A stretch of DNA of 64,000 bases, taken from assembly GCF_000971175.1 (NCBI RefSeq), contig NZ_BBLY01000004.1, positions 1-64,000 on the forward strand, written 5' to 3'. This stretch comes from Demequina pelophila. GTDB taxonomy: Bacteria > Actinomycetota > Actinomycetes > Actinomycetales > Demequinaceae. Below are positions 3,786 to 20,005 of this stretch, piece after piece. The first letter of the stretch is position 1, and each line of letters begins with the position of its first letter. The position numbers were made by a program, and so were the translations under genes. The notes under the pieces were generated by a model, which saw only the letters and a list, made by a program, of their open reading frames with translations, ran no database searches and had not been told where the DNA came from.

Positions 3786-3831
3786 TTGCGGGCGCCCCCG
3801 CCCTTCCCTAGGCTTGGGTGCAAGCGTTTGC
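3786..3831 (+). promoter_or_regulatory. promoter with overlapping LacI-type operator
   Basis: A -35-like TTGCGG (3786-3791), a 17-bp spacer and a -10-like TAGGCT (3809-3814) are followed at the expected start point by GCAAGCGTTTGC (3820-3831). That sequence is an imperfect palindrome with the central CG typical of LacI-family operators. The arrangement suggests repression of the downstream importer by a LacI regulator in the absence of sugar. The regulator is not identified; two LacI genes lie further along the window. Confidence 0.6.
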
Positions 3832-5419: not shown

Positions 5420-6487
5420 ATGTCGACTCTGGCAGTCGGGGGTCCAGGGGTGCTGCCCATGAGGGGCCTTGACTCGCAGTTCTGGTCCACGCAGGGCAGC
5501 AACGTGACGCTTGCGGTGATCGCGATCGTCGCGTTCGTCGCAGTCGTGGCCCTCATCATGTTCGGCGCGGACCTGGTCCGCGGGCGATCCCGCGACAAGG
5601 TGCAGCTGGTCGTGCTCGTCACGCCGGTACTCGCCCTGCTCGCGGTCGGCCTGATCTATCCGGCCTTCGACACCATCTGGATCTCCTTCACCGAGTCCGT
5701 CAGGGAGCCCGACCCGGAGACCGGCATCAACACGGTCACGACCACGTTCGCCGGCCTCTCGAACTACGTGTACGCGTTCACGGACCCGACGATGGCGCGC
5801 ACCATCCTCAACACGCTGCTGTGGATGATCTTCGTGCCGCTGCTGTCGACGGGCATCGGCCTCGCGTATGCGGTGTTCATCGATCGGGCCAAGGGCGAGA
5901 AGGTCTTGAAGTCCCTGGTGTTCATGCCGATGGCGATCTCCATGGTGGGTGCCTCGGTCATCTGGGGCTCGATCATGTACAACTACAACCAGACGGGCGA
6001 CCAGACGGGCATGCTCAACGCCCTGCTCGTGCTCGTCGGGCTCGAGCCGGTCAGCTTCCTCACGGTCCAGCCGTGGAACACGTTCTTCCTCATTCTGATC
6101 CTCGTGTGGAGCCAGACCGGCTTCGCGATGGTCATCATCTCCGCGGCGATCAAGGGCGTGCCGCCGGAGATGAACGAGGCGGCGTCGCTCGACGGCGCCA
6201 ACGCCTGGGAGCGCTTCTGGTCGATCACCATCCCGTCGATCCGCGGCACCCTGGTGGTGGTCGTCACCACCATCACCATCGCGACCCTGAAGGTCTACGA
6301 CATCGTCCGCACGCTCACCCAGGGCCGCAACTCCACGGATGTGGTGGCGAACAAGATGTTCGTCCTGTCCTTCGTCGAGCAGCGCCAGGAGCTGGGTGCC
6401 GCGCTCGCGGTGATCCTGTTCGCGTTCGTCATCCCGGTCGTGATCTACAACGTCCGGTCGCTCAACAAGGTGAAGGAGACCCGCTGA
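5420..6487 (+). CDS. sugar ABC transporter permease, MalF/AglF type
   Basis: A 355-residue integral membrane protein preceded by AAGGAGAG. About seven to eight hydrophobic segments are visible, the first from about residue 30. The cytoplasmic EAA loop reads EMNEAASLDGANAWERFWSITIPSIRG, the contact site for the ATPase. It forms the translocation pore with the next gene product. Its stop overlaps the next start (TGATG), indicating translational coupling. The family is clear; the substrate (alpha-glucosides) is inferred from similarity to AglF-type proteins. Confidence 0.9.
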   Translation: MSTLAVGGPGVLPMRGLDSQFWSTQGSNVTLAVIAIVAFVAVVALIMFGADLVRGRSRDKVQLVVLVTPVLALLAVGLIYPAFDTIWISFTESVREPDPETGINTVTTTFAGLSNYVYAFTDPTMARTILNTLLWMIFVPLLSTGIGLAYAVFIDRAKGEKVLKSLVFMPMAISMVGASVIWGSIMYNYNQTGDQTGMLNALLVLVGLEPVSFLTVQPWNTFFLILILVWSQTGFAMVIISAAIKGVPPEMNEAASLDGANAWERFWSITIPSIRGTLVVVVTTITIATLKVYDIVRTLTQGRNSTDVVANKMFVLSFVEQRQELGAALAVILFAFVIPVVIYNVRSLNKVKETR

Positions 6488-7416
6488 TGACTGCGATCGA
6501 TACCGCCGCGGACACCGGGTCGGACAAGCCCGAGAAGAAGTCGCGAGCCGCGAAGGCCAAGGAGAATCTCACCTCTCCGTGGGCCACCGGCGCCGCGATC
6601 GTCATCGCCGCGCTGTGGACCATCCCCACGATCGGCCTGTTCATGACCTCGCTGGTGCCCGGCACCCGCTACCGGACGGACGCCTGGTGGGAGGTGCTGC
6701 TCGACGGCGAACTCACGTTCGCGAACTACAGCAGCGTGCTGTTCGACTCGTTCGGCGACAGTTCGACGGCGCCCCCGCTGCTGGGGTACGTGATGAACTC
6801 CGTCGTCGTCACGGTGCCGTCGGTGGTCTTCCCGCTGGTGCTGGGCCTCATGGCGGCCTACGCGTTCGCGTGGATCCCGTTCCGCGGCTCGAGCTTCCTG
6901 TTCGTGACCATCTTCGCGCTCCAGGTCGTGCCGCTGCAGCTCGCGCTCATCCCGCTGCTCCGCCTGCTCGGACCCCAGAACCTGGGCCTCGCGGGCCAGT
7001 TCCCGGGCGTGTGGATAGCCCACACGATCTTCGCGATGCCGCTCGCGGTGTTCCTGTTGCACAACTTCATCGCGCAGATCCCCAGCGACATCATCGAGGC
7101 GGCCCGCGTTGACGGCGCGAGCCACACGCAGATCTTCTTCCGCGTGATCATCCCGCTGTCGCTGCCCGCGGTCGCCTCACTGGCAATCTTCCAGTTCCTG
7201 TGGGTGTGGAACGACCTGCTGGTCTCGGCCGTCTTCGGAAGCTCGAAGACCTATCCGCTGACGTACCCGATCTCGAGCCTCGCCGGCTCGTACGGCGCCA
7301 CCGCGTATCTGGTGCCGCCGGCGGCGTTCGTCTCGATGATCATCCCGCTGATCGTGTTCTTCTCGCTCCAGCGCTACTTCGTCCGCGGCCTGCTGGCCGG
7401 CTCGACTAAGGGCTGA
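6487..7416 (+). CDS. sugar ABC transporter permease, MalG/AglG type
   Basis: The 309-residue partner permease starts at ATG 6487, inside the previous stop codon. A charged N-terminal tail (SDKPEKKSRAAKAKENL) precedes six membrane segments. The EAA loop is EAARVDGASHTQIFFRVIIPLSLPA, and the conserved NVWNDLL-like site appears as FLWVWNDLLVSAVF. With the lipoprotein and the MalF-type partner it makes a CUT1-type importer. A strong terminator follows, so the operon ends here. Confidence 0.9.
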   Translation: MTAIDTAADTGSDKPEKKSRAAKAKENLTSPWATGAAIVIAALWTIPTIGLFMTSLVPGTRYRTDAWWEVLLDGELTFANYSSVLFDSFGDSSTAPPLLGYVMNSVVVTVPSVVFPLVLGLMAAYAFAWIPFRGSSFLFVTIFALQVVPLQLALIPLLRLLGPQNLGLAGQFPGVWIAHTIFAMPLAVFLLHNFIAQIPSDIIEAARVDGASHTQIFFRVIIPLSLPAVASLAIFQFLWVWNDLLVSAVFGSSKTYPLTYPISSLAGSYGATAYLVPPAAFVSMIIPLIVFFSLQRYFVRGLLAGSTKG

Positions 7417-7451
7417 GTCGCGCGGGCGTCCGCCCGCTCGACGCCCCCGTT

Positions 7452-7492
7452 CGCGAAACGAGGCCGCTCACGCCGAGCGGCCTCGTTTCGCG
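7452..7492 (+). terminator. intrinsic terminator of the sugar importer operon
   Basis: A perfect 17-bp stem (CGCGAAACGAGGCCGCT, 7452-7468, with its complement at 7476-7492) and a 7-base loop. It lies between the convergent importer operon and the unknown gene ending at 7550, so it may serve both strands. Confidence 0.85.
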
Positions 7493-7549
7493 TGCCCGGG
7501 GACGATGCGGTCGCACGGGCCGATGCAGCGGCGGGGGACGATGCGCCCC

Positions 7550-8500
7550 TCACCCCAGGACGGAGAAGACCTCTTCCCAGGGCACGGTGGTGATGCCCGT
7601 GGAGATGCCGGCTGTCAGGGCCGCGACGGCGCGCTTGACGCCAAGCTTGTCGCTGGGGAAGCGCTCGGAGTAGGCCTCGAGCAGCTCGTCCATCGAGCCG
7701 GCCTCGGAGTCGCGGAGGATCTCGCGGACCCGGCCGCCCACGCGGGGGTCGCCCACCTCCTGGCGGACCATGTCCTCGGCGTCGCGGCGCAGGGCCCGGG
7801 AGACGTAGGCGAGCGGGTCGACGCGGACGAAGGTGCGCGCTTCGAGGCAGCGGTCCAGCAGCGCACCGAGGCGGCCGGGCTTGTCGCCCTCGCCCAGGGT
7901 CATGCGGTTGAGCAGCGTCTCGGTCGCCTGCTCGTCGAAGAGATTCTGGGCGTCGTCGTCGCCGGCGATCGCACGGGAGACGGCGGGCACCGCGCGGCGC
8001 ATCGCCTTCTCTGCGTAGGGCTCGAGCCGCATGTGCGCGGCCCAGCGCGCGCCCTTGCCTGCCTCGACGAGCTCGGCGAGGCGGGCGCCGGCGGCGACCC
8101 GAGCGCGCACGGACGCGCCGATCGACGCGGGGACGCCCAGCGCATCGTCCACTCGCTCGCTCAGGCCCGCGCGCACGGTGGTGGTGCCGGAATCGGTGTA
8201 GCCCAGGCCGGCGAGCCGCCAGCCGACGGTGACCTCCTCGCCGGGTGCGAGGGCGAGGACCGTGGGCCCGTCCCAGTCGATGCGGACGGGGAGGTCGTAG
8301 GTGCCGCCCTGGGGGTCGAGGGCCTTGCGGCCCACGTCGACGCGGGGCTCGAGGAACGTCCAGACGGGGAGGGTGACGATGGCGGCATCGGTCGCGGGCT
8401 CGTCCAGCGCGGCGGCGTCGCGGCCGTGGATCGCGGTCTCGAGGTCGGCGCAGAACGCGTCGAGCCAGGCGTGGCGGCGCGCGGTGGTGGCCATCGTCAT
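7550..8500 (-). CDS. conserved protein of unknown function
   Basis: A 316-residue soluble protein beginning MTMATTARRHAWLDAF. ATG 8500 was chosen over the second ATG because GAAGGAG sits about ten bases upstream. I do not recognise a domain. The first 100 residues look beta-rich and hydrophobic (VTLPVWTFLEPRVDVG); the remainder is helical and strongly charged, with several acidic and arginine-rich amphipathic stretches. No membrane segment or signal peptide is seen. It stands alone between a terminator and a divergent gene, so context does not suggest a role. Confidence 0.7.
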   Translation of the reverse strand: MTMATTARRHAWLDAFCADLETAIHGRDAAALDEPATDAAIVTLPVWTFLEPRVDVGRKALDPQGGTYDLPVRIDWDGPTVLALAPGEEVTVGWRLAGLGYTDSGTTTVRAGLSERVDDALGVPASIGASVRARVAAGARLAELVEAGKGARWAAHMRLEPYAEKAMRRAVPAVSRAIAGDDDAQNLFDEQATETLLNRMTLGEGDKPGRLGALLDRCLEARTFVRVDPLAYVSRALRRDAEDMVRQEVGDPRVGGRVREILRDSEAGSMDELLEAYSERFPSDKLGVKRAVAALTAGISTGITTVPWEEVFSVLG

Positions 8501-8682
8501 GGGGCGGAGTCTCCTTCGCTGCACCGGGGCGCGGCTCCGTCCCCCGGGTGGGGCGAAACCACTTCGCGCGCCCGGAGAAGATGCATTGATTGTGGCAACG
8601 TAACCATTGCATTGCGCGGGACGTGAGTCCCTGGCGGCGGCGAGGGTGCGCGCGCCAAAGTAATCGCGTTCGAGTGCCACTG

Positions 8683-8695
8683 GTTGGCGCATGTT
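8683..8695 (+). promoter_or_regulatory. GTTGGCGCATGTT motif, copy 1
   Basis: An exact copy of a 13-bp sequence that also precedes the pilin, adhesin and sortase genes downstream. It ends 51 bases before the start of the unknown gene at 8747. Two GTT triplets are spaced ten bases apart, one helical turn, as in direct-repeat sites of response regulators. Confidence 0.6.
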
Positions 8696-8746
8696 CGATA
8701 GCGAGCCGGTTCGAGCGGCCGACAAACAACAGGGAGAGGGGGCGCC

Positions 8747-9655
8747 ATGGTGGGTGACACCTCGCGTCCGCGCTACTTCAGAGGACCCACCGAGCCCGGC
8801 GATCGACTCGTTCAGCCGGTGGACCTCGCGGCGCAGGAGCGGCGCGCCTCGTTCATCGAGAGTCACACGGGCATGCGTGTGGACCGCGGGGGCGGTCGGC
8901 GGGGCGCCTCACCTCTGTATCTCTCCCCCGTCGTGTCGCTGCCGTTGCCCCAGGCGGGCCGCGGATGGGACGCGTTGCAGCGGACCGGCCGCCGCGTTGC
9001 CTCGACGCTGTGCAGCCCGCTGTACTGGCTGCCCGCGGAGCTCTTCATCGGCGGGGACCCCGAGCGTTGCCGCGACGAGGATGCCTTGCGCGCGGCGCTC
9101 GCCATCCTCCGATCCGACCTCTACGACCCGGTCGACGGTGTGTGGCTCGACGTCCTCGCGCCGCTCGGGATCGATGTCCGTCAGCCCGACGGGCTCGCGC
9201 GCGTGGCGCGCTGGGACGCAGGCGGCCGCGATCTCGCTCTCGACGGGCTGGACCTACGTGCGCACTTCGATGCGATTCCGTGGGCGGCCCAGTCCGCCGC
9301 CGCGCTGCTGCCGCCCATGATCGCCGCGTCGTGGTCGCTCACCGCGCGCGACCTGGGCGGGCGTGTGAGCGCCATGCTGCGCGATGTCGAGGCGCACTCC
9401 ACCGAGTATCTGGTGTCCGCGTGCGAGGCCATCGTGTCCATAGGGCACGAGCGACTGGCCCTGTGCCGCCGCGGCGGACTCGATCGCCACGAATTCTGGA
9501 GGTCCTGCACGCGGCTGCTCGTGGAGATGGGGGACGGCCGGCCGTCACGGTCGCTCGTGGGAGGACTTCTACTATCCCTTGAGGCCGAGCTCGACGAGGT
9601 CGAGCAGACCTACGCGCACGCCATCGTGGACCTCTACGGAGAGATCCCGGCCTGA
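8747..9655 (+). CDS. protein of unknown function, possibly linked to the pilus locus
   Basis: The protein has 302 residues and starts at ATG 8747 behind AGGGAGAGGGG. No domain, signal peptide or clear membrane segment is recognised. Tryptophan-containing helices dominate after residue 60, and the C-terminal third is helical and acidic (SLEAELDEVEQTYAHAIVDLYGE). Its upstream region carries the 13-bp motif shared only with the sortase/pilin genes, so co-regulation is likely. A cytosolic accessory or regulatory role is conceivable but unproven. Confidence 0.65.
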   Translation: MVGDTSRPRYFRGPTEPGDRLVQPVDLAAQERRASFIESHTGMRVDRGGGRRGASPLYLSPVVSLPLPQAGRGWDALQRTGRRVASTLCSPLYWLPAELFIGGDPERCRDEDALRAALAILRSDLYDPVDGVWLDVLAPLGIDVRQPDGLARVARWDAGGRDLALDGLDLRAHFDAIPWAAQSAAALLPPMIAASWSLTARDLGGRVSAMLRDVEAHSTEYLVSACEAIVSIGHERLALCRRGGLDRHEFWRSCTRLLVEMGDGRPSRSLVGGLLLSLEAELDEVEQTYAHAIVDLYGEIPA

Positions 9656-9759
9656 CGTTGTCCGCCCGGGCCCTTCGCTGAGCCCATGTCAGACGGGGCG
9701 GCTCTGGCCGGGCCCGACTGGGCCAGGGCGGCTCGGGCGGTACTCCCGACCAGGCCCTG

Positions 9760-10689
9760 TCAGGCCGCGTCGGCCTCGTCGTCGCAACGGCGGCGCCACC
9801 GCACGTAGAAGATCAGCCCGCCCCACAGGATCACGACCGTCAGCACGCCCCACCAGGGCAGTGACGCCACGGCCTGGGAGGTCAGCGCCACGGTGGACTC
9901 GGCGGCGGGGGCCACGTCCTCCGGGGTGGGCACGCGGTGGCCGGTCACCGCGAGCCGATGCGAGTTGATGCCGATGGGCGTGCACGTGATGAGCGTGAGG
10001 AGGTCCTGGCCCTCCTGCGGGACGATCACGGAGCCGTCGGTGGGCTCCACCACCCGGACGTCGTCGACCTCGTAGGTGAGCGTCTCTCCCAGCACGTCGA
10101 TGAGCATCTGGTCGCCCACGCCGATCGCGTCGAGTCGCGTGAACAGCTGCGCGTCCGGGAGTCCCCGGTGGCCGCTGAGCACCGTGCGGTTGCCCTCGCC
10201 GCCCACGGGCAGGTGGGTGCCGAACAGGTGGCCCACGCCGCGCTGCAGCGAGTCCTCGCCGGTGCCGTGGAAGATCGGCAGGTCCACCTCGATGGCCGGG
10301 ATGCGCAGGCGCGCCATGGTCTGGTCGGTGGCGAGCAGGGACCGGTACTCCGCCATGTCCTCCTGCAGTTCCGCGTCCACCGGGGCAGCCGAGGCGAACG
10401 GGTCCTCGAGCTGCGTGAGCTCCAGGTCCGCGTTGTACTCCCGCGCGCGCTCGAGCTCGGCCGCGCGGTCCACCTCGGGCATGTGCGCGATGGTCTCCGC
10501 GTATCCCTCGACGGCCCCGGCCTCGCGGTGCGCGTTCCACATCGACGCGACCGTGGGGTACGCGAGCGTCGCGACGCCGATGACCGCCAGCATCACCACC
10601 AGCACCTTGCGCCCGCGAGGCCAGCGCGCGCGACGGCGCGCCGCCGCGTCGGCGGTCTCAGGGGACGGGGTGCTCACCTTCAACAACAT
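9760..10689 (-). CDS. class C sortase (pilin polymerase) 1
   Basis: This 309-residue enzyme should covalently join pilin subunits. After a basic N-terminus there is a membrane segment (about residues 25-45, KVLVVMLAVIGVATLAYP). An EDPFASA sequence (Asp-Pro-Phe) matches the lid that covers the active site in class C sortases. The catalytic His is in VLSGHRGLP, the Cys in TLITCTPIGINSHRL, and the Arg follows in the same strand; a C-terminal membrane segment (PWWGVLTVVILWGGLIFYV) is also typical of class C. The ATG at 10689 lies inside a copy of the 13-bp motif; GTG 10677 is an alternative start. It diverges from the class E sortase gene. Confidence 0.88.
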   Translation of the reverse strand: MLLKVSTPSPETADAAARRRARWPRGRKVLVVMLAVIGVATLAYPTVASMWNAHREAGAVEGYAETIAHMPEVDRAAELERAREYNADLELTQLEDPFASAAPVDAELQEDMAEYRSLLATDQTMARLRIPAIEVDLPIFHGTGEDSLQRGVGHLFGTHLPVGGEGNRTVLSGHRGLPDAQLFTRLDAIGVGDQMLIDVLGETLTYEVDDVRVVEPTDGSVIVPQEGQDLLTLITCTPIGINSHRLAVTGHRVPTPEDVAPAAESTVALTSQAVASLPWWGVLTVVILWGGLIFYVRWRRRCDDEADAA

Positions 10690-10697
10690 GCGCCAAC
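10685..10697 (-). promoter_or_regulatory. GTTGGCGCATGTT motif, copy 2
   Basis: An exact copy on the minus strand overlapping the proposed start codon of class C sortase 1, in the 103-bp divergent region with the class E sortase gene. Binding here would directly block initiation at this gene, or the true start lies slightly downstream. Confidence 0.55.
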
Positions 10698-10792
10698 CGG
10701 CCGATGCGCGGGTCCGGCGGGCGCGGCCCGCGCCACCGCGCGGGGCCGGGTTAGCATGCCTGGACCACCCCAGCCCCTCCCCAAGGACGCCC

Positions 10793-11584
10793 ATGACCGC
10801 TCCGGTGCCTCCCGCATCGTCCCCGCGCACGCGGAGGTCGGCGGGCCGAGCCCTCGCGGGACTTGTGGGGGAGCTGCTCATGATCGGTGGGGCGTTCGCC
10901 ATCGGGTTCGTCGTGTGGCAGATGTGGTGGACCGACTTCCAGGGCGAGCGCGATCAGCTCGAGGCGCTCGCGGACCTGCGCGGGGGCGCCATCGCGGCCG
11001 CCGCGGCGCCCGACGCCGTCGCTCCGCCCCAGGACGGCGCCGCGCCCACGGACGACTTCGCCGGCGACTTCGCGCAGGGCGACCCGATCGCGGTCCTGCA
11101 CGTCCCGGTCTTCGGGCGCGAGGACGGCACGGACTGGCAGCGCGGCGTCTACGAGGGCGTGAGCTGGGCGGACGTGCTCAACACGCTGGGCGTGGGCCAC
11201 TACCCGGACACCCAGATGCCGGGCGAGCCGGGCAACTTCGGGGTCGCCGCGCATCGGACTACGTACGGCAAGCCGTTCGCGAACATCGACTGGCTGGTCG
11301 AGGGCGACCCGATCGTCGTCGAGTCCGAGAGGTACTGGTACGTCTACGAGGTGTCGGACGTCCAGATCCTGCTCCCGTGGGAGACGGAGGCGCTCGCGCC
11401 CGTCCCCGGGGACCGGACGTGGCAGGAGAAGCCGAGCGCGAGCATCGTCACCCTGACCTCGTGCCACCCCAAGACGTTCTCGACGCACCGCTACGTGGTC
11501 CACGGCGAGCTGCAGTACTGGGCTCTCAAGTCCGAAGGCGTCCCCGCGGAGCTCGCGGGCCTCGCACCCCAGGAGGCGGCATGA
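10793..11584 (+). CDS. class E sortase
   Basis: A 263-residue transpeptidase. A single membrane anchor lies near residues 28-48 (ELLMIGGAFAIGFVVWQMWW), followed by a low-complexity linker and the sortase domain. The catalytic His is in VAAHRTTYG, the Cys in the class E hallmark TLTSCHP, and the Arg in THRYVVHG. Class E enzymes are housekeeping sortases of high-GC actinobacteria that prefer LAxTG-like signals, so the FAMTG pilin encoded nearby is a plausible substrate. It overlaps the following small gene by four bases. The start is ATG 10793 after AAGGACG. Confidence 0.9.
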   Translation: MTAPVPPASSPRTRRSAGRALAGLVGELLMIGGAFAIGFVVWQMWWTDFQGERDQLEALADLRGGAIAAAAAPDAVAPPQDGAAPTDDFAGDFAQGDPIAVLHVPVFGREDGTDWQRGVYEGVSWADVLNTLGVGHYPDTQMPGEPGNFGVAAHRTTYGKPFANIDWLVEGDPIVVESERYWYVYEVSDVQILLPWETEALAPVPGDRTWQEKPSASIVTLTSCHPKTFSTHRYVVHGELQYWALKSEGVPAELAGLAPQEAA

Positions 11585-11754
11585 TCTTCCCGGCCATCTG
11601 GCGCCTGCTGCCCGGACCCCGCTGGGTCAAGGTGCTGCTGGTGCTGCTCCTGATCCTCGCCCTGTTCGCGGCGTGCTTCCGCTGGGTCTACCCGGCGATC
11701 GCCCCGTGGATCGAGGTCATCTCCGGCGACCCGCTGTTCGAGCTCGAGTCCTAG
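11581..11754 (+). CDS. small membrane protein accompanying class E sortase
   Basis: The protein has 57 residues and one membrane segment (VKVLLVLLLILALFAACF). It starts at ATG 11581 inside the sortase stop (ATGA), so it is translationally coupled. Similar short proteins commonly follow class E sortase genes in actinobacteria; the function is unknown. Its stop codon overlaps the stop of the convergent class C sortase 2 (11751-11754). Confidence 0.75.
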   Translation: MIFPAIWRLLPGPRWVKVLLVLLLILALFAACFRWVYPAIAPWIEVISGDPLFELES

Positions 11755-12710
11755 CCCCGGCGGTCGCGGCGCCGGCGGCGCAGCAGCAGGATCAGCATGA
11801 GGAGCATCCACGCGCCCACGAGCGCGCCCACGGCCCACCAGGGGAGCGTGGTCACGGCGTTGTCCACGATGGACGCGGTGGAGGTGGCGGGGGCGGCGTC
11901 CTCGGCGACGGTGGGGATCCGGTGGCCGGTGACGATCAGGCGGTGGGTGTTGATGCCGATCGGCGTGCAGGTGACCAGGCTGAGCAGGTCCTGGCCCTCG
12001 ACGGCGTCGAGCAGCTCGCCGTCCTCGGGCAGCACTGTCTGGGTGCCGTCGACCTCGTAGGTGAAGGTCTCGCCCAGGACGTCGACGTAGATCTTGTCGC
12101 CGGGGACGATGCGGTCCACATGGGTGAAGAGCATCGCGTCCGGCAGGCCGCGGTGGCCGGTGAGGACCGCGCGCGTGCCCTCGCCTCCCACGGGCAGGTG
12201 GGTGCCGAAAAGGTGGCCCACGCCGCGCTGGAGCGCGTCCTCGCCGGAGCCGTGGTAGATGGGCAGGTCGACGCCGATCGAGGGGATGCGGATGCGCGCC
12301 ATGGCGTCGGTGATGGCGAGCACGCCGCGGTACTCGTCCATGCGGGCCTGGGTCTCGGGGTCGGCGGCGGTGCCGACGGAGCTGAAGGGGTCCGCCATCG
12401 TCATCGGCGGCAGGGCGGCGTTGTAGTCGTGGGCGCGCTGGAGCTCGGCGGCGCGCTCGGCGGCGTCGGTGTTCTCGACCGCGTCCGCGTAGCCGGCGAC
12501 GGCCGTGGACTGGCGGTAGGAGTTCCACATCGACGCGATGGTGGGGTACGCAAGGGTGCCGATCCCGACCAGGATCAGGACGGCGACCAGGATGCCGCGG
12601 ACGGGGAGGCGGCGCTTCGCGGGGGACGATGCGGTGGCGGCCCGAGCGGCCGGCGCGCCGGCGTCAGTGGCGGGCGCAGCATCGTTCGTGGGGACGGGGG
12701 TGGGGGCCAT
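11751..12710 (-). CDS. class C sortase (pilin polymerase) 2
   Basis: This 319-residue paralogue of sortase 1 starts at ATG 12710. It has a Pro/Ala-rich N-terminal tail, a membrane segment (GILVAVLILVGIGTLAYP), an Asp-Pro-Phe lid (MADPFSSVG), catalytic His in VLTGHRGLP, Cys in SLVTCTPIGINTHRL, and a C-terminal membrane segment followed by an Arg-rich tail. It lies 82 bases downstream of the LPMTG pilin and is read in the same direction, so this pilin is its likely substrate. A strong hairpin between the two genes probably lowers its expression relative to the pilin. Confidence 0.9.
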   Translation of the reverse strand: MAPTPVPTNDAAPATDAGAPAARAATASSPAKRRLPVRGILVAVLILVGIGTLAYPTIASMWNSYRQSTAVAGYADAVENTDAAERAAELQRAHDYNAALPPMTMADPFSSVGTAADPETQARMDEYRGVLAITDAMARIRIPSIGVDLPIYHGSGEDALQRGVGHLFGTHLPVGGEGTRAVLTGHRGLPDAMLFTHVDRIVPGDKIYVDVLGETFTYEVDGTQTVLPEDGELLDAVEGQDLLSLVTCTPIGINTHRLIVTGHRIPTVAEDAAPATSTASIVDNAVTTLPWWAVGALVGAWMLLMLILLLRRRRRDRRG

Positions 12711-12736
12711 GGGTGGGGACTCAAGCCTTTCTGCGA

Positions 12737-12771
12737 CGAAGGGGCGGCACCGAACCGGTGCCGCCCCTTCG
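12737..12771 (-). terminator. pilin-sortase intercistronic hairpin
   Basis: A perfect 16-bp stem with a 3-base loop (arms 12737-12752 and 12756-12771) between the pilin stop and the sortase 2 start. It acts as a terminator or attenuator that would make pilin message far more abundant than sortase message, as usual in pilus operons. Confidence 0.8.
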
Positions 12772-12792
12772 CGGTGCTGGTGACGCGAGGGC

Positions 12793-14451
12793 TTAGGCCT
12801 GCGCGTCGGCCTTGCGCTTGCGGTCGGCCAGCATGAGGGCGCCGGCCGCGCCGAGCACGCCCACGCCCGCGAGCGAGATGAGCATGGTGCCGGTGCCACC
12901 GGTCATCGGCAGGTCGAAGCCGGCGCGCTGGATCGCGTCGGCGAAGGTGACCTCCGCGTCGGCGTCGATGTCGCTGACGGTGACCTCCTGCGGCGAGTTC
13001 ACGGAGAGCTCGTGGTCCGCGGGGGCCTTGGTCTCGACCACCCAGTAGGACTTGATGTCGTCGCCGGTCGCGGCAGCGTTGTTGGCCCACTCCGAGAAGC
13101 GGAGGCCGTCCACGGAGGCGATGCCGTTCGCGTCGGTCACGAAGGTGGCAGTGGTGCCGTCGAGGGCGTGCAGCGGGTTGGTGCCGTCGAGGGCGTCCTG
13201 CTCGGAGGCGAAGATCTGGAACTCGGCGCCGGCGAGGGCGTCACCCGAGGCGAGGTCGGTCTTCTTGATCTCCAGCGAGCCCCACTTGACCACGGGCACG
13301 TCGGTGTTGAGCGGGGGCTGCTGCGACGTGAACGTGGGAGGGGTGAACGACGGAGTCCGGACTTCCTTGGTGGTGCCGTCGGGCTGCGTGGTCGGGGTCA
13401 GCTCGCCGGGAGTACCAGTCGGTCCGCCCGGGGTGCCGGCCGGCACACCCGGCGTCTTTGCGCCAGCCGGGGTGCGCAGGACATTGACGTCCGTGGCGTT
13501 GGTGTAGACGTTCGCCTGGTTGGGGATGATGGGGTTCGAGGCGTCCATCGAGGTGACGTCGGTGGTGATGACCACGCGCAGCTTGTGCGTCGCGGCGGCG
13601 GCGTCCTCGATGGCCTGGATCGCGGTGGCGTCCTTCTTGGCGGTCGCCACGACGATGTCGCCGGCGGGGGCGGTGCCCTGCGACACCACGAGGTCGAACG
13701 CGGCCGAGGCGTCGCCCTGGTCGGCGCCCGTGCCGTCGACCCAGGTCAGGGTCACGGCGGAGGCGTCGGCCACGTTGAGGCGGGGGTCGAGCTCATCGCG
13801 GAACGCGAAGTCGGTCAGCGTGTTGATGTCCTTCGGGACGTCCACGTCGATGGTCCAGACGGTGTCCTGGTCCGAGTCGGCGGCGGGCGCGTCCACGACG
13901 GTCTTGGTCGCGGTGACCTGGTCATCCTTGACGTCGGCTTCAATGTCGTACACCCACTGGTTGAGACCAGCCGGGTCGGTCATGGGCACCGGGGTGACGA
14001 ACGAGGTGGCGGCGACGTGGCCGGCGGGGACCACGGTCTCGGTCACGGCGTAGATGCCGAGGTCGAGGGCCGCAGCCGAGGCGTCGCCGGACGCGTCGGC
14101 GGTGATCGTGGTCGGAGTGGCGAGGTCGACGTCGCCGCCGTTCTTGCCCGCGAGGAAGGCATCCCAGCCGCCGGCCGCCTTGACGTCCGTCGAGAGATCC
14201 TGCGCGGCCTGCCAGCCGGCGTCGGTGGTGAGGTCGAGGTCCTGGCCGACGTAGGCGGTGACCCGGGTGACCGAGAACTCCGCGTTCTCGGCGCCACCGT
14301 GAATGGTGATCGAGCCGTCGTGCTGGTCGTCGATCAGGGTGGCATCGGCAGCCATGGCGCCGGCGGCGCCGCCAAGGATCAGGCCGCACGAGAGCGCGGC
14401 GGTGGCGGCGAGGCCCGCGAAGCGGACCGCAGGACGCGTAGTCGAGATCAT
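12793..14451 (-). CDS. LPXTG-anchored pilin subunit (isopeptide-forming, LPMTG)
   Basis: A 552-residue secreted pilin. The start at ATG 14451 is preceded by GAAGGAAC and gives a signal peptide ending near AMAADATL. Domains are an N-terminal pilin domain with E-box-like YAVTETVVPAG, a SpaA/D2-like middle domain, a Pro/Thr-rich linker, and a CnaB-type domain (LEIKKTDLASGDALAGAEFQI ... YWVVETKAP) whose Lys and Glu can form an isopeptide bond. LPMTG (residues 514-518), a hydrophobic stretch and RKRKADAQA form the sorting signal. The likely pilin-motif lysine is in WVYDIEADVK. It is probably the shaft subunit polymerised by sortase 2. Confidence 0.9.
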   Translation of the reverse strand: MISTTRPAVRFAGLAATAALSCGLILGGAAGAMAADATLIDDQHDGSITIHGGAENAEFSVTRVTAYVGQDLDLTTDAGWQAAQDLSTDVKAAGGWDAFLAGKNGGDVDLATPTTITADASGDASAAALDLGIYAVTETVVPAGHVAATSFVTPVPMTDPAGLNQWVYDIEADVKDDQVTATKTVVDAPAADSDQDTVWTIDVDVPKDINTLTDFAFRDELDPRLNVADASAVTLTWVDGTGADQGDASAAFDLVVSQGTAPAGDIVVATAKKDATAIQAIEDAAAATHKLRVVITTDVTSMDASNPIIPNQANVYTNATDVNVLRTPAGAKTPGVPAGTPGGPTGTPGELTPTTQPDGTTKEVRTPSFTPPTFTSQQPPLNTDVPVVKWGSLEIKKTDLASGDALAGAEFQIFASEQDALDGTNPLHALDGTTATFVTDANGIASVDGLRFSEWANNAAATGDDIKSYWVVETKAPADHELSVNSPQEVTVSDIDADAEVTFADAIQRAGFDLPMTGGTGTMLISLAGVGVLGAAGALMLADRKRKADAQA

Positions 14452-14535
14452 GAGAGAGGTTCCTTCTCGTGTGTTCCGCGGCCGGGTCTCGGTCCGCACG
14501 TGCATGGACGGCCCGGGGCGGGCCGTGCGGGTTGA

Positions 14536-14548
14536 AACATGCGCCAAC
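14536..14548 (-). promoter_or_regulatory. GTTGGCGCATGTT motif, copy 3
   Basis: An exact minus-strand copy 84 bases upstream of the LPMTG pilin start. Confidence 0.6.
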
Positions 14549-14629
14549 TTTTCTGAGGCCCTCGGAACCGAGTTCCGTGGGCGTCGCGTCCCGCGCGCGG
14601 CGCGGTCATGGGACGCGTGGTTGCGTGGC

Positions 14630-16132
14630 TCAGGCCGGCTGCTGCTCGTCGCGGCGCCGGGAGTAGATGAAGATCAGGGCGCCCACGGTGAGTGCCGCGC
14701 CGCCGCCGAGTGCGAGCGCGATGTTTCCGCCCGTCATGGCGAAGCCGGTCGGGTGAGTCGGGGTCGCGGTGGTGGTCGAGGGCGGGACGGTGCCGTCGGT
14801 CGGCGGAGTCGAGTCGCCCGCGGGAGGGGTGGAACCGGAGGTCGGCGGCACCTCGGCAGGCGGCTCGGGCCAGCTCACGGTCACCGGCGGCGCCGCGGCG
14901 GTCCAGTTGTGCGACAGCACGGCGCTGTGGCCGACGAGCACCAGCGCCTCGTTCGCCACCTCCGTCGACGCGCACTCGTAGGTGCCGCTAGCGGAGAGCC
15001 CCGCCTGGATGGCCTCCGTGCAGTGGCGCGCGTCGGCGGTGATCTCGGAGCTGAGCGTGACCTCGACGCGCGCGCCGGGGTGGTCGGTCACGATCTGCGG
15101 CATCGCCGCGAGCGTCGCAGCCGTCGCCGTCACGGTCAGTGCGTCCGCGTCGAGCGGCACGTCGTCGCCGTCGCGGTCGACGCCCTCGGTGACGTGGGTG
15201 AGGTCGAGCTCGAAGTCGTCGGCGTCCAGCAGCCCGGGGAGGGCGGAGCCGTCCGCTGCCACCACGGTCACGTCGACGGCGTGCTCGAGCACGTCCTCGA
15301 CCGTTGCATCGGCGTCCGCGCTGTCGGCGCTGTGAAGGCCGCTCACGTCCTTGTACGCGACGTGGATGCCGTCCGAGAGGACGTCCTCGACCGTGTACGC
15401 GTCCTGGAGCGCGGACGGGATGTCCGCGTCGATGGTCCACGTGACCACCTCGTGCTCGGCCGCGATCCGGTGCCGGGAGACGTCCTTGGCAATGCTGATC
15501 TCGTCGGGCTTGGGGAACGCGTCGACCGTGTAGCTCCAGCCGGTGCCCGCATCGTCGGTCGCGAGCGAGGGCGAGACGAAGGTCGCGATGGGCGCCCACG
15601 ACGTGGGGGCGACGGTCTCGGAGATGGTGAAGAGGCCCAGGTCCAGGCCGCTGAAGTCCGCGAGGCCGTCCGCGTCGGAGGTCTTCTCGACCGGCGCGCC
15701 CAGGGTGACGTCCGCGGCATGGCCCGCGTAGAAGACGTCCCACGATCCGGCGGCGTTGACCGCGTCGCACAGCGCGGTCGCGGCCCTCCACCCGGCCTCG
15801 GTCGTGAGGTCGAGCGCCTCGCCCAGGTAAGAGGTGATCGGGGTCGCGGCGAGCACCGCGCCCGCGACGGGCCGCAGGTTCGAGGTTCCGGTCGGCTGCA
15901 CCGTGCCCGCGTCGGGCGCGACGGCCGTCACGGTGTGGACCCGGATCTCGCCGGTGCGCTGCGCGTCGAGCGCCCAGAGCGGCGCCGCCTGGACGGTCGC
16001 CGTGGCCTCGGGCGTCGCGGCCGGCGAGGAATCGGCCGCGATCGCCGCGGGGGCGACGGTCGCGAGACCCACCGTGAGTGCGACCGCGAATCCGAGCGGT
16101 CGGAAGCAGGCGCTCAGGCGCGTCGAAGTCAT
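14630..16132 (-). CDS. second pilin-like surface protein (sorting signal FAMTG)
   Basis: The 500-residue protein begins MTSTRLSACFRPLGF, with a signal peptide ending near AIAADSS and AAGGAGAGA before the ATG. Its domain order follows the LPMTG pilin: N-terminal pilin domain with an E-box-like LFTISETVAP, then a middle domain (EHEVVTWTIDADIPSAL) and a Pro/Thr linker. The C-terminal signal is FAMTGG (464-468), a hydrophobic span and SRRRDEQQPA. It lacks the LPxTG leucine-proline pair. FAMTG is closer to the LAxTG class preferred by class E sortases, so it may be a base or minor pilin anchored by the class E enzyme. Confidence 0.85.
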   Translation of the reverse strand: MTSTRLSACFRPLGFAVALTVGLATVAPAAIAADSSPAATPEATATVQAAPLWALDAQRTGEIRVHTVTAVAPDAGTVQPTGTSNLRPVAGAVLAATPITSYLGEALDLTTEAGWRAATALCDAVNAAGSWDVFYAGHAADVTLGAPVEKTSDADGLADFSGLDLGLFTISETVAPTSWAPIATFVSPSLATDDAGTGWSYTVDAFPKPDEISIAKDVSRHRIAAEHEVVTWTIDADIPSALQDAYTVEDVLSDGIHVAYKDVSGLHSADSADADATVEDVLEHAVDVTVVAADGSALPGLLDADDFELDLTHVTEGVDRDGDDVPLDADALTVTATAATLAAMPQIVTDHPGARVEVTLSSEITADARHCTEAIQAGLSASGTYECASTEVANEALVLVGHSAVLSHNWTAAAPPVTVSWPEPPAEVPPTSGSTPPAGDSTPPTDGTVPPSTTTATPTHPTGFAMTGGNIALALGGGAALTVGALIFIYSRRRDEQQPA

Positions 16133-16174
16133 GCGGTCTCTCCTTGCGGGCATGGATGCCGGGGGTCGCGGGAG

Positions 16175-16187
16175 AACATGCGCCAAC
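16175..16187 (-). promoter_or_regulatory. GTTGGCGCATGTT motif, copy 4
   Basis: An exact minus-strand copy 42 bases upstream of the FAMTG pilin start. The identity with copy 5 extends further downstream (CTCC), and copies 4 and 5 face each other in the divergent pilin/adhesin promoter region. Confidence 0.65.
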
Positions 16188-16257
16188 TTCCCCAGAGACG
16201 ATGCGCGGGCCGGGCCGAGAGCGCCCCTCCGGTGGGAAGGTGGGGCCGCCGTCAAGA

Positions 16258-16270
16258 GTTGGCGCATGTT
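16258..16270 (+). promoter_or_regulatory. GTTGGCGCATGTT motif, copy 5
   Basis: An exact plus-strand copy 36 bases upstream of the adhesin start. It forms a divergent pair with copy 4, 70 bases away. Confidence 0.65.
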
Positions 16271-16306
16271 CTCCGCGGAAGGACACCCCGGCTGTTGGAG
16301 GACAAG

Positions 16307-19300
16307 ATGCTTCGAGGCGTGACGACACGCGGACGACGCGACGCACGCGCCGCGCTCGCGGGCGGCATGGTGCTGGTCGCGCTCGTCGGAACGGCGCTGC
16401 CCGCTGCCGCCGACTCCGCAGCCGACGAGCCTGCGCTCAGCTCCTCGCCGGCGTCCCTTGCCGAGCCCTCGGCCGCTCCGTCGGTCTCGCCGTCGCCGGT
16501 TGCCGACGTCCCCGACGAAGGGTCTATCGCGGCCGAGTCGACGAACGTCGATGTCGAGGCGGTGGACGCTTCAGCGGCCGACGCCGGATCGAACCCAACC
16601 CAGCCCGACGCGGACGCGCCGTCGCCCACGGCGTCGCCGACGCCCTCGCCCGAGCCCGCTGCGGCGCTTGCGGACGACGCCGCCGACTTCGACGTCTACA
16701 CGGGCACCGCCGCGCCGGACGGCGCCGACCCGCTGGCCGAGACTCCCGAGGAGTACGACAACCCCGACGGGGTGGTCACCCCCGCGCCGGACGTAGCCTC
16801 CACCGAAATGCGCGGCCGAGGTGCGGCTGATGGGTCGAATGCTGTGGGGTGGACGCCCACCTCGGGCGGCGGATTCAACCCCTTTGATATCAATGGCGGG
16901 TTCACCGTCTACACCACTGGTGACGCGTTCTTCAACGGTGACGAGATCGAGGGGTCGATCGCCGCGGGCGGCACGATCGACTCGATCAAGAAATATGACG
17001 TGATCCATCACAACTCCGGCGATGGGTCGTACGACCTTCCTTCTGTGGATGGTCAGGCGACGCGTGTGCTTGTAAACCGACTTCCCGACGAGAAAGACGC
17101 GCTTGGTGGCTGGTTCGACGTAAGCTCCACGGGCGCCGGCACACCCGGTGCGGCTGGCGTTGGCGTAGTCAAGGTCGTGAATATGCAAATCGGAGACTTC
17201 GCGGTGAACCACGTCGGCGGCGCGACCGAGCAGGCCCAATATCAGTTGGACAGTGGCCAAAGCGACAGCGTGCCGCGGATCGATGCACGTCATCAGATCG
17301 TGTCTGACGCTAGTAGCCACGACGCTTGGGTCTCCAGTTTTCAGTCGGTCAAACGTGCCACGTCGATTCAAGAAGGTGCGCGGGTGGTGGCGCGATACGT
17401 TGAGGCGCAGGCCACCAAGACGTCAGCTGAGATGAGTAGTTGCCTTGCGGCGTTCCGTGACCCCGCGCGCTCGCAGGACGGCCAAGACGTCAGCCGAGTG
17501 ACGCCAATCGCTGGCGACTTTGGTGCGAACGACCCGGACGTGAGGCTGACCGCCGGAGCTGTGAACGTCATCGAATACGCGGACATCGAAGGCAACTTCC
17601 AATACCGCAACGCACTTCACTTCGGGCCAAAAGACAACGCTACTGCGCCGGGGCCCACGACCCCGGTCATTATTCACGTCTCGCCCGAAGACGTCTCGAA
17701 TGGCGCCGTCATCAGGCCGACGCGACTCATGGTGGGCGACCAGGTGCAGCCTGAGGCCGCTCGATACGTCATGTGGGACTTCAGTGACATCCACGGAGAT
17801 GTGATCATGAGCGCCGATGTGGAGATTGACGGTGCGATGTACGCACCATTCGCCCACCTCACCATCGAAGGCAATCACCATCCCGTGAACGGTCAGGTCT
17901 TCGCGCGTGAGTTCACGAGCGCGAAGGACTCCGGCGAGATTCACCACTACGGCTTCGAGGGAACCTTCAAGTGCCCCGCCGAGCACACGTCGAATGTGGA
18001 GAAGCACGTCTACGACGTGGGCGCGCAACCGGTGGATCGCATCACCATCGACGGTGTCAAGACTCGCGGCAACAAGCGCGAATTGGCGGCCGCGCATCTC
18101 TACCGTGTGAAGGGCGCGTTGCCGTCCGACTCGGTTGCTTGGAGCACGATTGGCCTGGGCGACCTTGAGGCAGTGGACTCTCGGAAGGTTCCAGCGGACA
18201 ACCAGCCGCACGACGTCACCTTCGACGCGGTCGACGTACCTGGCCACTATGTGGTGGTCACGGAGTGGAACGGCTCTGCTTCCGTACTCGATGGGTCCTC
18301 GAGCATCGACGACTCGGACGAGCGTTTCACGGTCGTGAAGCCGACCGCGACTCACGCGTCTCAGATCCAGGGCGCGACCGAGGTGGCACCGGGGGACACG
18401 GTCACGGACTCGGTCACGATTGCGAACATTCCGAGCGGGCACGAGGGCACCGCCGACGTCGACGTGTATGGCCCCTACGCGGACCAGCCGTCCGATGCCG
18501 CCGTGCCCGCGGGCGCAAGCGTGGCGATCGACGGGCTCACCGTGACGGCGGACAACTCCGCTCACAAGGTCTCGTTCGATGCGCCTGTCGACGAGGGCTG
18601 GTACGTGGTGGTGACGGGTTTCCCGGGCGACGCCACGGTGAACGGCGTCACATCGGCTTTCAACGACAAGGCCGAGATGTTCCACGTCGTGAAGCCGACC
18701 GCGTCTCACGCGTCTCAGATCCAGGGCGCGGCCGAGGTGGCACCGGGCACCACGGTGACCGACGAGATCACCATCGGCGGGCTGCCTCAGTCGTTTGTCA
18801 GCCAGTACGCCGGCAAGGGTGGCTTCAAGGCTGACGTCGACGTGTATGGCCCCTACGCGGACCAGCCGTCCGATGCCACCGTGCCGTCGGGGGAGTCCGT
18901 CGCGATCGACGGTCTCACCGTGGCGGCGGACAACAGGGCCCACGACGTCGACTTCGAGGCGCCTGTCGATGAGGGCTGGTACGTGGTCGTGACGGATTTC
19001 AAGGGCAACGACTCAGTCAACGGAGTCACGTCGGCGTTCAACGACACGGCAGAGATGTTCAAGGTTGCCGCCCCGAACCCCGTCGCGACGACCGAGGCGC
19101 GATCCAGTTCGTCGGCCGCCCCGGCCTCGCTTTGGGACCAGATCACGGTGACTGATGGCCGCGCGGGCATGACCGTCCACTCGGTGCTCTACTATGCGGA
19201 GTCCGAGAAGGAAATGGACAAGGGCAACCGCCGCGTCGCGTGGGAGTCGCAGGTGGATCACGACCTTGCGGCCGGCGCCACGTTCGAGACGCCCAAGTAT

Positions 19301-19540
19301 GTCGCCACGCTCGGCGGCGTGTACCAGTGGGTCGCCGTCGTACTCGACGCGCAGGGCAACGAGCTGTTCCGCGGTGACATGGACGATGCGAAGGAGCGCA
19401 TCATCCTGTCGGATGCGCAGTTCAACCTTCCGGCCGCCGGCGGCCAGGGCACGATGCGCTGGCTCGGCTGGGGAGGCCTCCTCGCGGTCGCCGCGGCAGG
19501 CGGGCTCTACGTCCTCGCGGATCGCCGCCGCCGCGCCTGA
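16307..19540 (+). CDS. large surface adhesin, choice-of-anchor-A domain, LPAAG signal
   Basis: A 1077-residue secreted protein starting at ATG 16307 behind TTGGAGGAC. A signal peptide ends near PAAADSAADE, followed by a Ser/Pro/Ala-rich stalk (about residues 30-165). A choice-of-anchor-A domain follows (GGFNPFDINGGFTVYTTGDAFFNGDEIEGSIAAGG ... GQVFAREFTSAKDSGEIHHYGFEGTF), a family linked to collagen-like binding. Three related beta-domains come next, the last two nearly identical in places (ADVDVYGPYADQPSDA, HASQIQGA). The tail is LPAAGG (from 1041), a hydrophobic span and ADRRRRA. Codons of the middle region are less GC-rich than neighbours, suggesting acquired domains. It is the probable pilus-tip or wall adhesin. 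Confidence 0.88.
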   Translation: MLRGVTTRGRRDARAALAGGMVLVALVGTALPAAADSAADEPALSSSPASLAEPSAAPSVSPSPVADVPDEGSIAAESTNVDVEAVDASAADAGSNPTQPDADAPSPTASPTPSPEPAAALADDAADFDVYTGTAAPDGADPLAETPEEYDNPDGVVTPAPDVASTEMRGRGAADGSNAVGWTPTSGGGFNPFDINGGFTVYTTGDAFFNGDEIEGSIAAGGTIDSIKKYDVIHHNSGDGSYDLPSVDGQATRVLVNRLPDEKDALGGWFDVSSTGAGTPGAAGVGVVKVVNMQIGDFAVNHVGGATEQAQYQLDSGQSDSVPRIDARHQIVSDASSHDAWVSSFQSVKRATSIQEGARVVARYVEAQATKTSAEMSSCLAAFRDPARSQDGQDVSRVTPIAGDFGANDPDVRLTAGAVNVIEYADIEGNFQYRNALHFGPKDNATAPGPTTPVIIHVSPEDVSNGAVIRPTRLMVGDQVQPEAARYVMWDFSDIHGDVIMSADVEIDGAMYAPFAHLTIEGNHHPVNGQVFAREFTSAKDSGEIHHYGFEGTFKCPAEHTSNVEKHVYDVGAQPVDRITIDGVKTRGNKRELAAAHLYRVKGALPSDSVAWSTIGLGDLEAVDSRKVPADNQPHDVTFDAVDVPGHYVVVTEWNGSASVLDGSSSIDDSDERFTVVKPTATHASQIQGATEVAPGDTVTDSVTIANIPSGHEGTADVDVYGPYADQPSDAAVPAGASVAIDGLTVTADNSAHKVSFDAPVDEGWYVVVTGFPGDATVNGVTSAFNDKAEMFHVVKPTASHASQIQGAAEVAPGTTVTDEITIGGLPQSFVSQYAGKGGFKADVDVYGPYADQPSDATVPSGESVAIDGLTVAADNRAHDVDFEAPVDEGWYVVVTDFKGNDSVNGVTSAFNDTAEMFKVAAPNPVATTEARSSSSAAPASLWDQITVTDGRAGMTVHSVLYYAESEKEMDKGNRRVAWESQVDHDLAAGATFETPKYVATLGGVYQWVAVVLDAQGNELFRGDMDDAKERIILSDAQFNLPAAGGQGTMRWLGWGGLLAVAAAGGLYVLADRRRRA
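18332..19050 (+). repeat. duplicated beta-domain repeats within the adhesin gene
   Basis: Two domain-length repeats are still recognisable at DNA level. Segments from 18332 recur from 18686 (offset 354), and those from 18465 recur from 18843 (offset 378, after a 24-base insertion). Such in-frame duplications can change by recombination and alter stalk length. Confidence 0.75.
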
Positions 19541-19566
19541 CCCGGCGCGCGCAGGCCGCCACAGAC

Positions 19567-19610
19567 CAAGGGACGATGCCCCGCCCACCCGGGCGGTGCA
19601 TCGTCCCTTG
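19567..19610 (+). terminator. adhesin gene terminator
   Basis: A 13-bp perfect outer stem (CAAGGGACGATGC at 19567-19579, complement at 19598-19610) with a further GC-rich inner stem. Both arms are copies of the decamer that recurs through the window. Confidence 0.8.
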
Positions 19611-19669
19611 TCCATTCCCCGCCACCGCCGGCGGGGAGGCCCCTGCCCGCCACGCCCTAGACTGGCCCG

Positions 19670-20005
19670 GTGAGCGACGCCCACGAGCCGCACGAGGCCG
19701 CCGACTTCCCCGAGCCTCCCGCCGTCGAGGACCTCGACCGCCTGTCCGTGCCCGCACACGTGCGCACCGCGCCGCGGTTCTCGCGCATGGTGATGACCGG
19801 CGTGGGGGCGGCGATCGTGCTCGCCGCGATCCTCGCGATCGTGCTGCCCAACTCCACCGGCACGGGGCGCTTCATGGTGTTCGTCGTGCTCGTGCTGGGG
19901 CTGGGGCTGCTCGGCGGGCTGTTCGGCGGGCTGATCGCCATCCGCCTCGATCGACCGGCCGGGCCCCAGGGGTCCGCGCAGGACAGGAGTACCGATGCGC
20001 GGTGA
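19670..20005 (+). CDS. small two-segment membrane protein upstream of purF
   Basis: The protein has 111 residues. The GTG at 19670 has TAGACT six bases upstream, so the transcript is probably leaderless. An acidic, Pro-rich N-terminal 40 residues precede two membrane segments (MVMTGVGAAIVLAAILAIVLP; FMVFVVLVLGLGLLGGLFGGLIAI). It overlaps purF by 11 bases, suggesting co-translation. Proteins of this layout often precede purF in actinobacteria; no function is known to me. Confidence 0.75.
   Translation: MSDAHEPHEAADFPEPPAVEDLDRLSVPAHVRTAPRFSRMVMTGVGAAIVLAAILAIVLPNSTGTGRFMVFVVLVLGLGLLGGLFGGLIAIRLDRPAGPQGSAQDRSTDAR

Follow-up and report, generated by a model that had tools for sequence, protein, structure and literature searches.

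A strictly conserved 13-base sequence in the promoter gaps of an acquired sortase-pilus island of Demequina pelophila, a candidate regulator site

In a window of 64,000 nucleotides from Demequina pelophila (positions 1 to 64,000 of contig NZ_BBLY01000004.1, GCF_000971175.1), an exact 13-base sequence, GTTGGCGCATGTT, precedes the genes of a horizontally acquired sortase-pilus island (Table 1). It is identical at all its sites, directed at the genes, confined to this island and one place in the core genome, and absent elsewhere. We regard it as a tag of a known type, an operator or promoter element common to the units of a pilus island; what sets it apart is its strictness and its presence in every promoter gap. 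On balance, we favor the view that a single sequence-specific transcription factor recognizes this asymmetric 13-mer and co-regulates the units of the island; in more general terms, the sequence data suggest that its copies are probably the landing site of one switch controlling the island genes together.

All five copies reported in the initial annotation are present at the positions given there, and none was found elsewhere in the window below three mismatches: there are no sites at one or two mismatches, ten at three mismatches, which is the chance level, and 15 in total at three or fewer, compared to 12.1 ± 3.5 in shuffled sequences. The claim that chance would not produce such a number also holds, as 0.0011 copies are expected under the third-order Markov model and the probability of at least five is 1e-17. 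The same 13-mer is the most over-represented one of the window (log10 P of −17.0 vs. −11.3 for the runner-up and −7.9 for the best of 40 simulated windows).

The placement of the copies is likewise far from random. With start codons selected by ribosome-binding site and frame, on which all distances given here rest, each of the five copies is directed at its gene and lies 0–84 bases from the start codon; four of them end 36–84 bases ahead of a start codon that has a ribosome-binding site. A random position in the island would be equally close and oriented in 2.9% of cases, giving 2e-8 for five of five, in agreement with the earlier statement that the copies are start-proximal and gene-oriented. 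Moreover, the 13-mer is found in all four gaps obliged to hold promoters of island genes (8501–8746, 10690–10792, 14452–14629, 16133–16306) and in none of the six remaining island junctions. The divergent gap between the genes for the FAMTG pilin and the adhesin contains two copies, one directed at each gene, and the 82-base gap between the LPMTG pilin gene and the sortase C2 gene downstream of it contains none. The sortase C1 gene has a particular arrangement: its first in-frame ATG (10689) lies inside copy 2, an in-frame GTG (10677) follows seven bases beyond the motif, and no ribosome-binding site was found upstream of either. As copy 2 overlaps the start, there is no space for a usual upstream activator site, and with either start codon the motif is part of the leader or of the core promoter. 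Alternatively, copy 2 could act on the class E sortase gene, which is divergent and 95 bases off.

Table 1. Features of the pilus island and copies of the 13-mer in the window.
Feature	Position	Strand	Remarks
Pilus island	7417..19669 (12.25 kb)	.	flanked by ABC (ATP-binding cassette) permease gene, which ends at 7416, and by gene 19670-purF; GGGACGATGC-type repeats at each end
Protein without Pfam/NCBIfam/PHROGs match	7550..8500	-	31–36% identity to 8 plasmid records; family on large actinobacterial plasmids
302-residue protein without Pfam/NCBIfam/PHROGs match (gene 8747)	8747..9655	+	distant relatives on plasmids and in other mobile-type neighborhoods
Class C sortase 1	9760..10689	-	NF033745 2.5e-74
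Class E sortase	10793..11584	+	NF033747 2.1e-60
Small membrane-like protein, 57 residues, gene overlaps class E sortase gene	11581..11754	+	membrane-like character only
Class C sortase 2	11751..12710	-	NF033745 1.7e-74
SpaH/EbpB-family major pilin (LPMTG)	12793..14451	-	NF033902 1.2e-69
Second pilin-like surface protein (FAMTG)	14630..16132	-	NF033902 9.1e-29
Choice-of-anchor A / pAdhesive_15 adhesin	16307..19540	+	PF20597 4.2e-27; TIGR04215 8e-12
13-mer copy 1	8683..8695	+	exact match; 51 bases before gene 8747
13-mer copy 2	10685..10697	-	exact match; overlaps sortase C1 start
13-mer copy 3	14536..14548	-	exact match; 84 bases before LPMTG (SpaH/EbpB-type) pilin gene
13-mer copy 4	16175..16187	-	exact match; 42 bases before FAMTG pilin gene
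13-mer copy 5	16258..16270	+	exact match; 36 bases before adhesin gene
18-bp perfect inverted repeat	16171–16188 / 16257–16274 (span 16171..16274)	.	spacer 68; copies 4 and 5 plus five common neighbor bases

The whole genome (2,682,991 bases in 11 contigs) contains six exact copies vs. 0.044 expected, five of them within the island. A genome-wide count had been proposed together with the initial annotation, and its result, six copies in 2.68 Mb, is not the picture of many copies unrelated to surface genes. No copies with one mismatch exist in the genome, and those with two mismatches are at the background level (28 vs. 32 for the reversed control pattern), hence the motif has no halo of near-sites; 21 of the 24 two-mismatch copies for which loci were available (out of 28) lie inside genes according to a crude first-start caller.

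The sequence around the motif is not shared. Outside the 13 bases, ten columns agree in at least five of the six copies, vs. 9.5 expected, and only copies 4 and 5 have further bases in common (five); with flanks that differ in this way, duplication of DNA does not account for the copies. The information content of the 13-mer, corrected for the small sample, is 21.3 bits vs. 19.8 bits needed for six sites in this genome, which fits a small regulon of six sites with a dedicated regulator. The motif is asymmetric: it is not a palindrome, and a direct repeat is not convincingly present. Seven of its 13 positions are G or C. The initial annotation had read GTT triplets ten bases apart as a direct-repeat site; this is a 3-bp coincidence (1 in 64) that the flanks do not extend, and the direct-repeat factor was rejected. 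The initial interpretation is supported in that the motif is non-random, oriented, promoter-proximal, and confined to the pilus locus and a single further place; its direct-repeat part is not supported, and the regulon itself is a probable reading.

Under the interpretation that we favor, a transcription factor, either an activator or a repressor, would bind the asymmetric site as a monomer or a head-to-tail dimer, at or immediately beside the core promoter, and would co-regulate the promoter-bearing transcription units of the acquired island, with the pst operon (phosphate uptake) probably being one core member of the regulon. Binding of a protein to the 13-mer, joint expression of the marked genes, and membership of pstS in the regulon are what we infer here.

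The sixth exact copy (C8:200482-200494), situated outside the window, is directed at pstS from a distance of 242 bases to its start. It lies between the gene of a PhoB/RegX3-like response regulator and an apparent PHO box in the pstS promoter, about 100 bases upstream of the latter. In relatives, the gap between the regulator gene and pstS is shorter and does not contain the 13-mer; the closest relative (G059) lacks about 215 bases which here comprise the 13-mer and a dispersed repeat present twice in tandem. This gap (G000:C8:200239-200829, L110) is enlarged by the two tandem repeats of about 60 bases, including a GACGATGC core that reads as GCATCGTC in reverse complement. This copy may point to a connection with phosphate, although it may equally be passive there, given its distance from the start and its location in a stretch absent from relatives.

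Several observations weigh against the transcription factor interpretation. A scan of eight of the nine island proteins, all but the 57-residue protein at 11581, found no DNA-binding family match or other recognizable DNA-binding domain. No orthologous promoter shows conservation of the 13-mer. Zero variation over six sites is unusual for a transcription factor, a point softened by the small sample. Finally, the sixth copy is remote from pstS, upstream of the apparent PHO box, and in DNA that relatives do not have.

The nearest rival, which we consider unlikely, is that the 13-mer itself serves an alternative sigma factor as an extended −10 core promoter element; transcription would then begin about eight bases downstream, and the sortase C1 mRNA would be leaderless from GTG 10677. 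The motif end seven bases before this codon is approximately where a −10 element of a leaderless start would be, the implied leaders of about 28–77 bases are reasonable for the other genes, and no sigma-70-like promoter was found in 8300–20000 by a consensus scan, which is, however, weak in GC-rich DNA. Nevertheless, −10 and −35 blocks at a fixed spacing are not seen: the motif is a single conserved block, and no second one exists at any fixed spacing within 100 bases, so that one would have to allow a single strict element. None of the sigma consensuses known to us matches the 13-mer. Also doubtful is a broader scenario in which a regulator of an undescribed class, or such a single-element alternative sigma factor, reads the exact 13-base word, present once per promoter as a mark of a recently gained pilus island, and has already recruited the core gene pstS, so that fiber assembly and phosphate uptake switch together.

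The other explanations are less likely still. All five island copies could fall in 5′ leaders, and the strand opposite to the sixth copy, between the regulator gene and pstS, would give rise to an RNA with complementarity to each of them, so that the 13-mer might be an RNA-level element targeted by a small RNA or an RNA-binding protein; we consider this improbable, since the RNA folding of the five leaders does not exceed that of shuffled sequences in stability and the distance of the motif to the ribosome-binding site varies. A translation signal or an RNA-structure element was rejected on similar grounds, as the distance to the start codon is variable (0–84 and 242 bases) and there is no extra fold stability. 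Strict identity and the presence of copies in both orientations could also indicate a site of site-specific recombination, where inversion between opposite copies would swap or flip promoters and cause phase variation of the pilus genes; indeed, copies 4 and 5 form a perfect inverted repeat with the geometry of an invertible promoter. However, inverted repeats flank this promoter pair only, copies 1–3 having no partner across their promoters, 13 bp without inverted arms are short for a recombinase site, no recombinase match was found in the island proteins subjected to the scan described above (eight of nine), and the unrelated upstream stretches are contrary to frequent exchange, making this mechanism about as improbable as an RNA-level one. 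Least credible, in our opinion, is a dispersed short repeat without a regulatory role, spread along with the GGGACGATGC-type repeats of this genome. Three of the six copies (10685, 16175, and the pstS one) do have CGCATCG 12–37 bases upstream, and the pstS copy adjoins two tandem copies of such a repeat; still, the GGGACGATGC-type repeat is scattered through the whole window, unlike the 13-mer, which is restricted to positions close to starts, and neither the orientation of the 13-mer nor its presence in four of four promoter gaps would be expected of a passive repeat.

Returning to the transcription factor interpretation, the site can be compared with known systems. The closest well-characterized one is pilus islet 1 of Streptococcus pneumoniae, where RlrA acts on the four promoters of its own islet (PMC8465756). 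The Demequina island resembles it as a horizontally variable pilus locus with several promoters sharing sites, with the difference that here the regulator site is a candidate one. RlrA is encoded inside its islet, while no recognizable regulator is seen among the scanned proteins of this island, and RlrA sites are AT-rich, in contrast to the fixed, mixed-composition 13-mer. Bifidobacterial sortase pili with ON/OFF switching provide another case of actinobacterial sortase pili under locus-wide control, although the switching there is reported to proceed by replication slippage and not through a shared dispersed site (PMC9187656).

Among actinobacterial regulators, AdpA of Streptomyces (AraC/XylS family) has an asymmetric site as well, and TGGCGCATGT within the motif fits eight of ten positions of TGGCSNGWWY; the two mismatches are at specified positions, and AdpA sites are degenerate and numerous, whereas this one is exact and six-fold. 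The genome has three HTH_18 genes, candidates for AraC-family regulators, on contigs C3, C5, and C11, and none on C8. Similar to the PHO boxes of PhoP/RegX3, the 13-mer starts with GTT, GTT recurs in it, and pstS as well as the gene of a PhoB/RegX3-like regulator are close to its sixth copy. PHO boxes, however, are 11-bp direct repeats of GTTCA-type units, whereas here the GTT spacing is ten, the units are not repeated, and the pstS promoter has a separate apparent PHO box. The initial annotation knew of no described regulator with this site, and consistently, no paper in a searched library of 5.39 million contains the 13-mer on either strand.

Little seems to be known about what turns on sortase pili in actinobacteria outside a few species. 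The 13-base word provides an exact bait, as it marks every promoter-bearing gap of one pilus island, and the case demonstrates an acquired island arriving with, or gaining, a uniform control tag.

That the island is an insertion follows from its flanks, which are adjacent in relatives: in nine of the 11 loci examined, drawn from the 43 other genomes of the genus that have the downstream gene, about 100–180 bases separate the permease gene from the gene 19670 and purF that follow it, and no permease end was detected in L246 and L253, the remaining two. Several relatives carry repeats of the GGGACGATGC type in the corresponding gap, as does this genome at each island junction. A REP-like (repetitive extragenic palindromic) dispersed repeat of the window has the core GGGGACGATGCG, with eight exact copies of this 12-mer at 780, 7498, 7534, 10813, 12102, 12622, 38980, and 63795; it is at both junctions and is present as GGACGATGC in the equivalent gap of several relatives. 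It may have guided the insertion of the island. The products of genes 7550 and 8747 both belong to families from large actinobacterial plasmids. As for gene 8747 as a possible regulator, its plasmid relatives have no annotation, no relative was found on viral contigs, relatives adjoin an FtsK/SpoIIIE-type gene, and the AlphaFold2 model built without an alignment is uninformative (predicted local distance difference test score, pLDDT, of 39).

None of the other 43 genomes of the genus contains an ortholog of the pilus locus: the best matches of sortase C1 there are partial and 28–38% identical, compared to 56% identity to sortase C2 of the same island, and no pilin match was found in any same-genus genome of the set. 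Hence, the conservation comparison within the genus is void rather than failed. In a set of 396 genomes of the order, including this one, 12 others have the 13-mer, with 14 copies and at most two per genome; in an overlapping set of 296 genomes of the class, 12 others have one copy each. The crude first-start caller places 12 of the 14 order-set copies inside genes, and the contrast with this genome is weaker than apparent, as the same caller places three of its six copies inside open reading frames extended at the 5′ end. In the order, 20 stretches with pilus loci (322,020 bases) contain no copies at up to one mismatch and six two-mismatch copies, one each in six of the stretches. Together with 80 named loci of class C sortases, these stretches form a set of 100 pilus loci from other taxa, in all of which the exact 13-mer is absent. 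Within this sampling, the tag is therefore private to the present genome.

We also searched for strict motifs of their own in other pilus loci, using a k-mer score with a threshold of −2 on 101 loci, including this one. The threshold was passed by 20 loci, five of which outscore the Demequina locus, and no second clear case was found among the 101 loci scored. Of these five, three were rejected for MITE-like (miniature inverted-repeat transposable element) pairs (L172), for repeats that are ends of a transposase-like gene (L157), and for inverted pairs away from pilin starts (L096); in L179 and L148, the regular spacing suggests in-gene repeats. Two loci with weaker scores were rejected because the repeats are not start-proximal (L108) or the sites lie within or at the edges of called genes (L215).

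Some repeats seen in these loci and in the window are of separate interest. The near-identical inverted-repeat elements of about 150 bases at L172:12490-12637 and 15442-15589 are MITE-like and lie beside the pilus locus of a Bacillota metagenome-assembled genome, and near pilus loci of other genera, 22-bp units with CCTCG or GAGG at their core are repeated in tandem between genes (L092:4270-4370, L093:9780-9850, L094:13640-13710). In the window, TGTGGAGGGGTGA occurs three times (3601, 3703, 28054); two of these copies are upstream of the gene at 3818, which encodes a sugar ABC binding protein, and the sequence is possibly another operator. The sequence CGCGACGATCGCG occurs seven times in the window, at 5521, 22392, 25481, 47271, 56179, 60725, and 62489.

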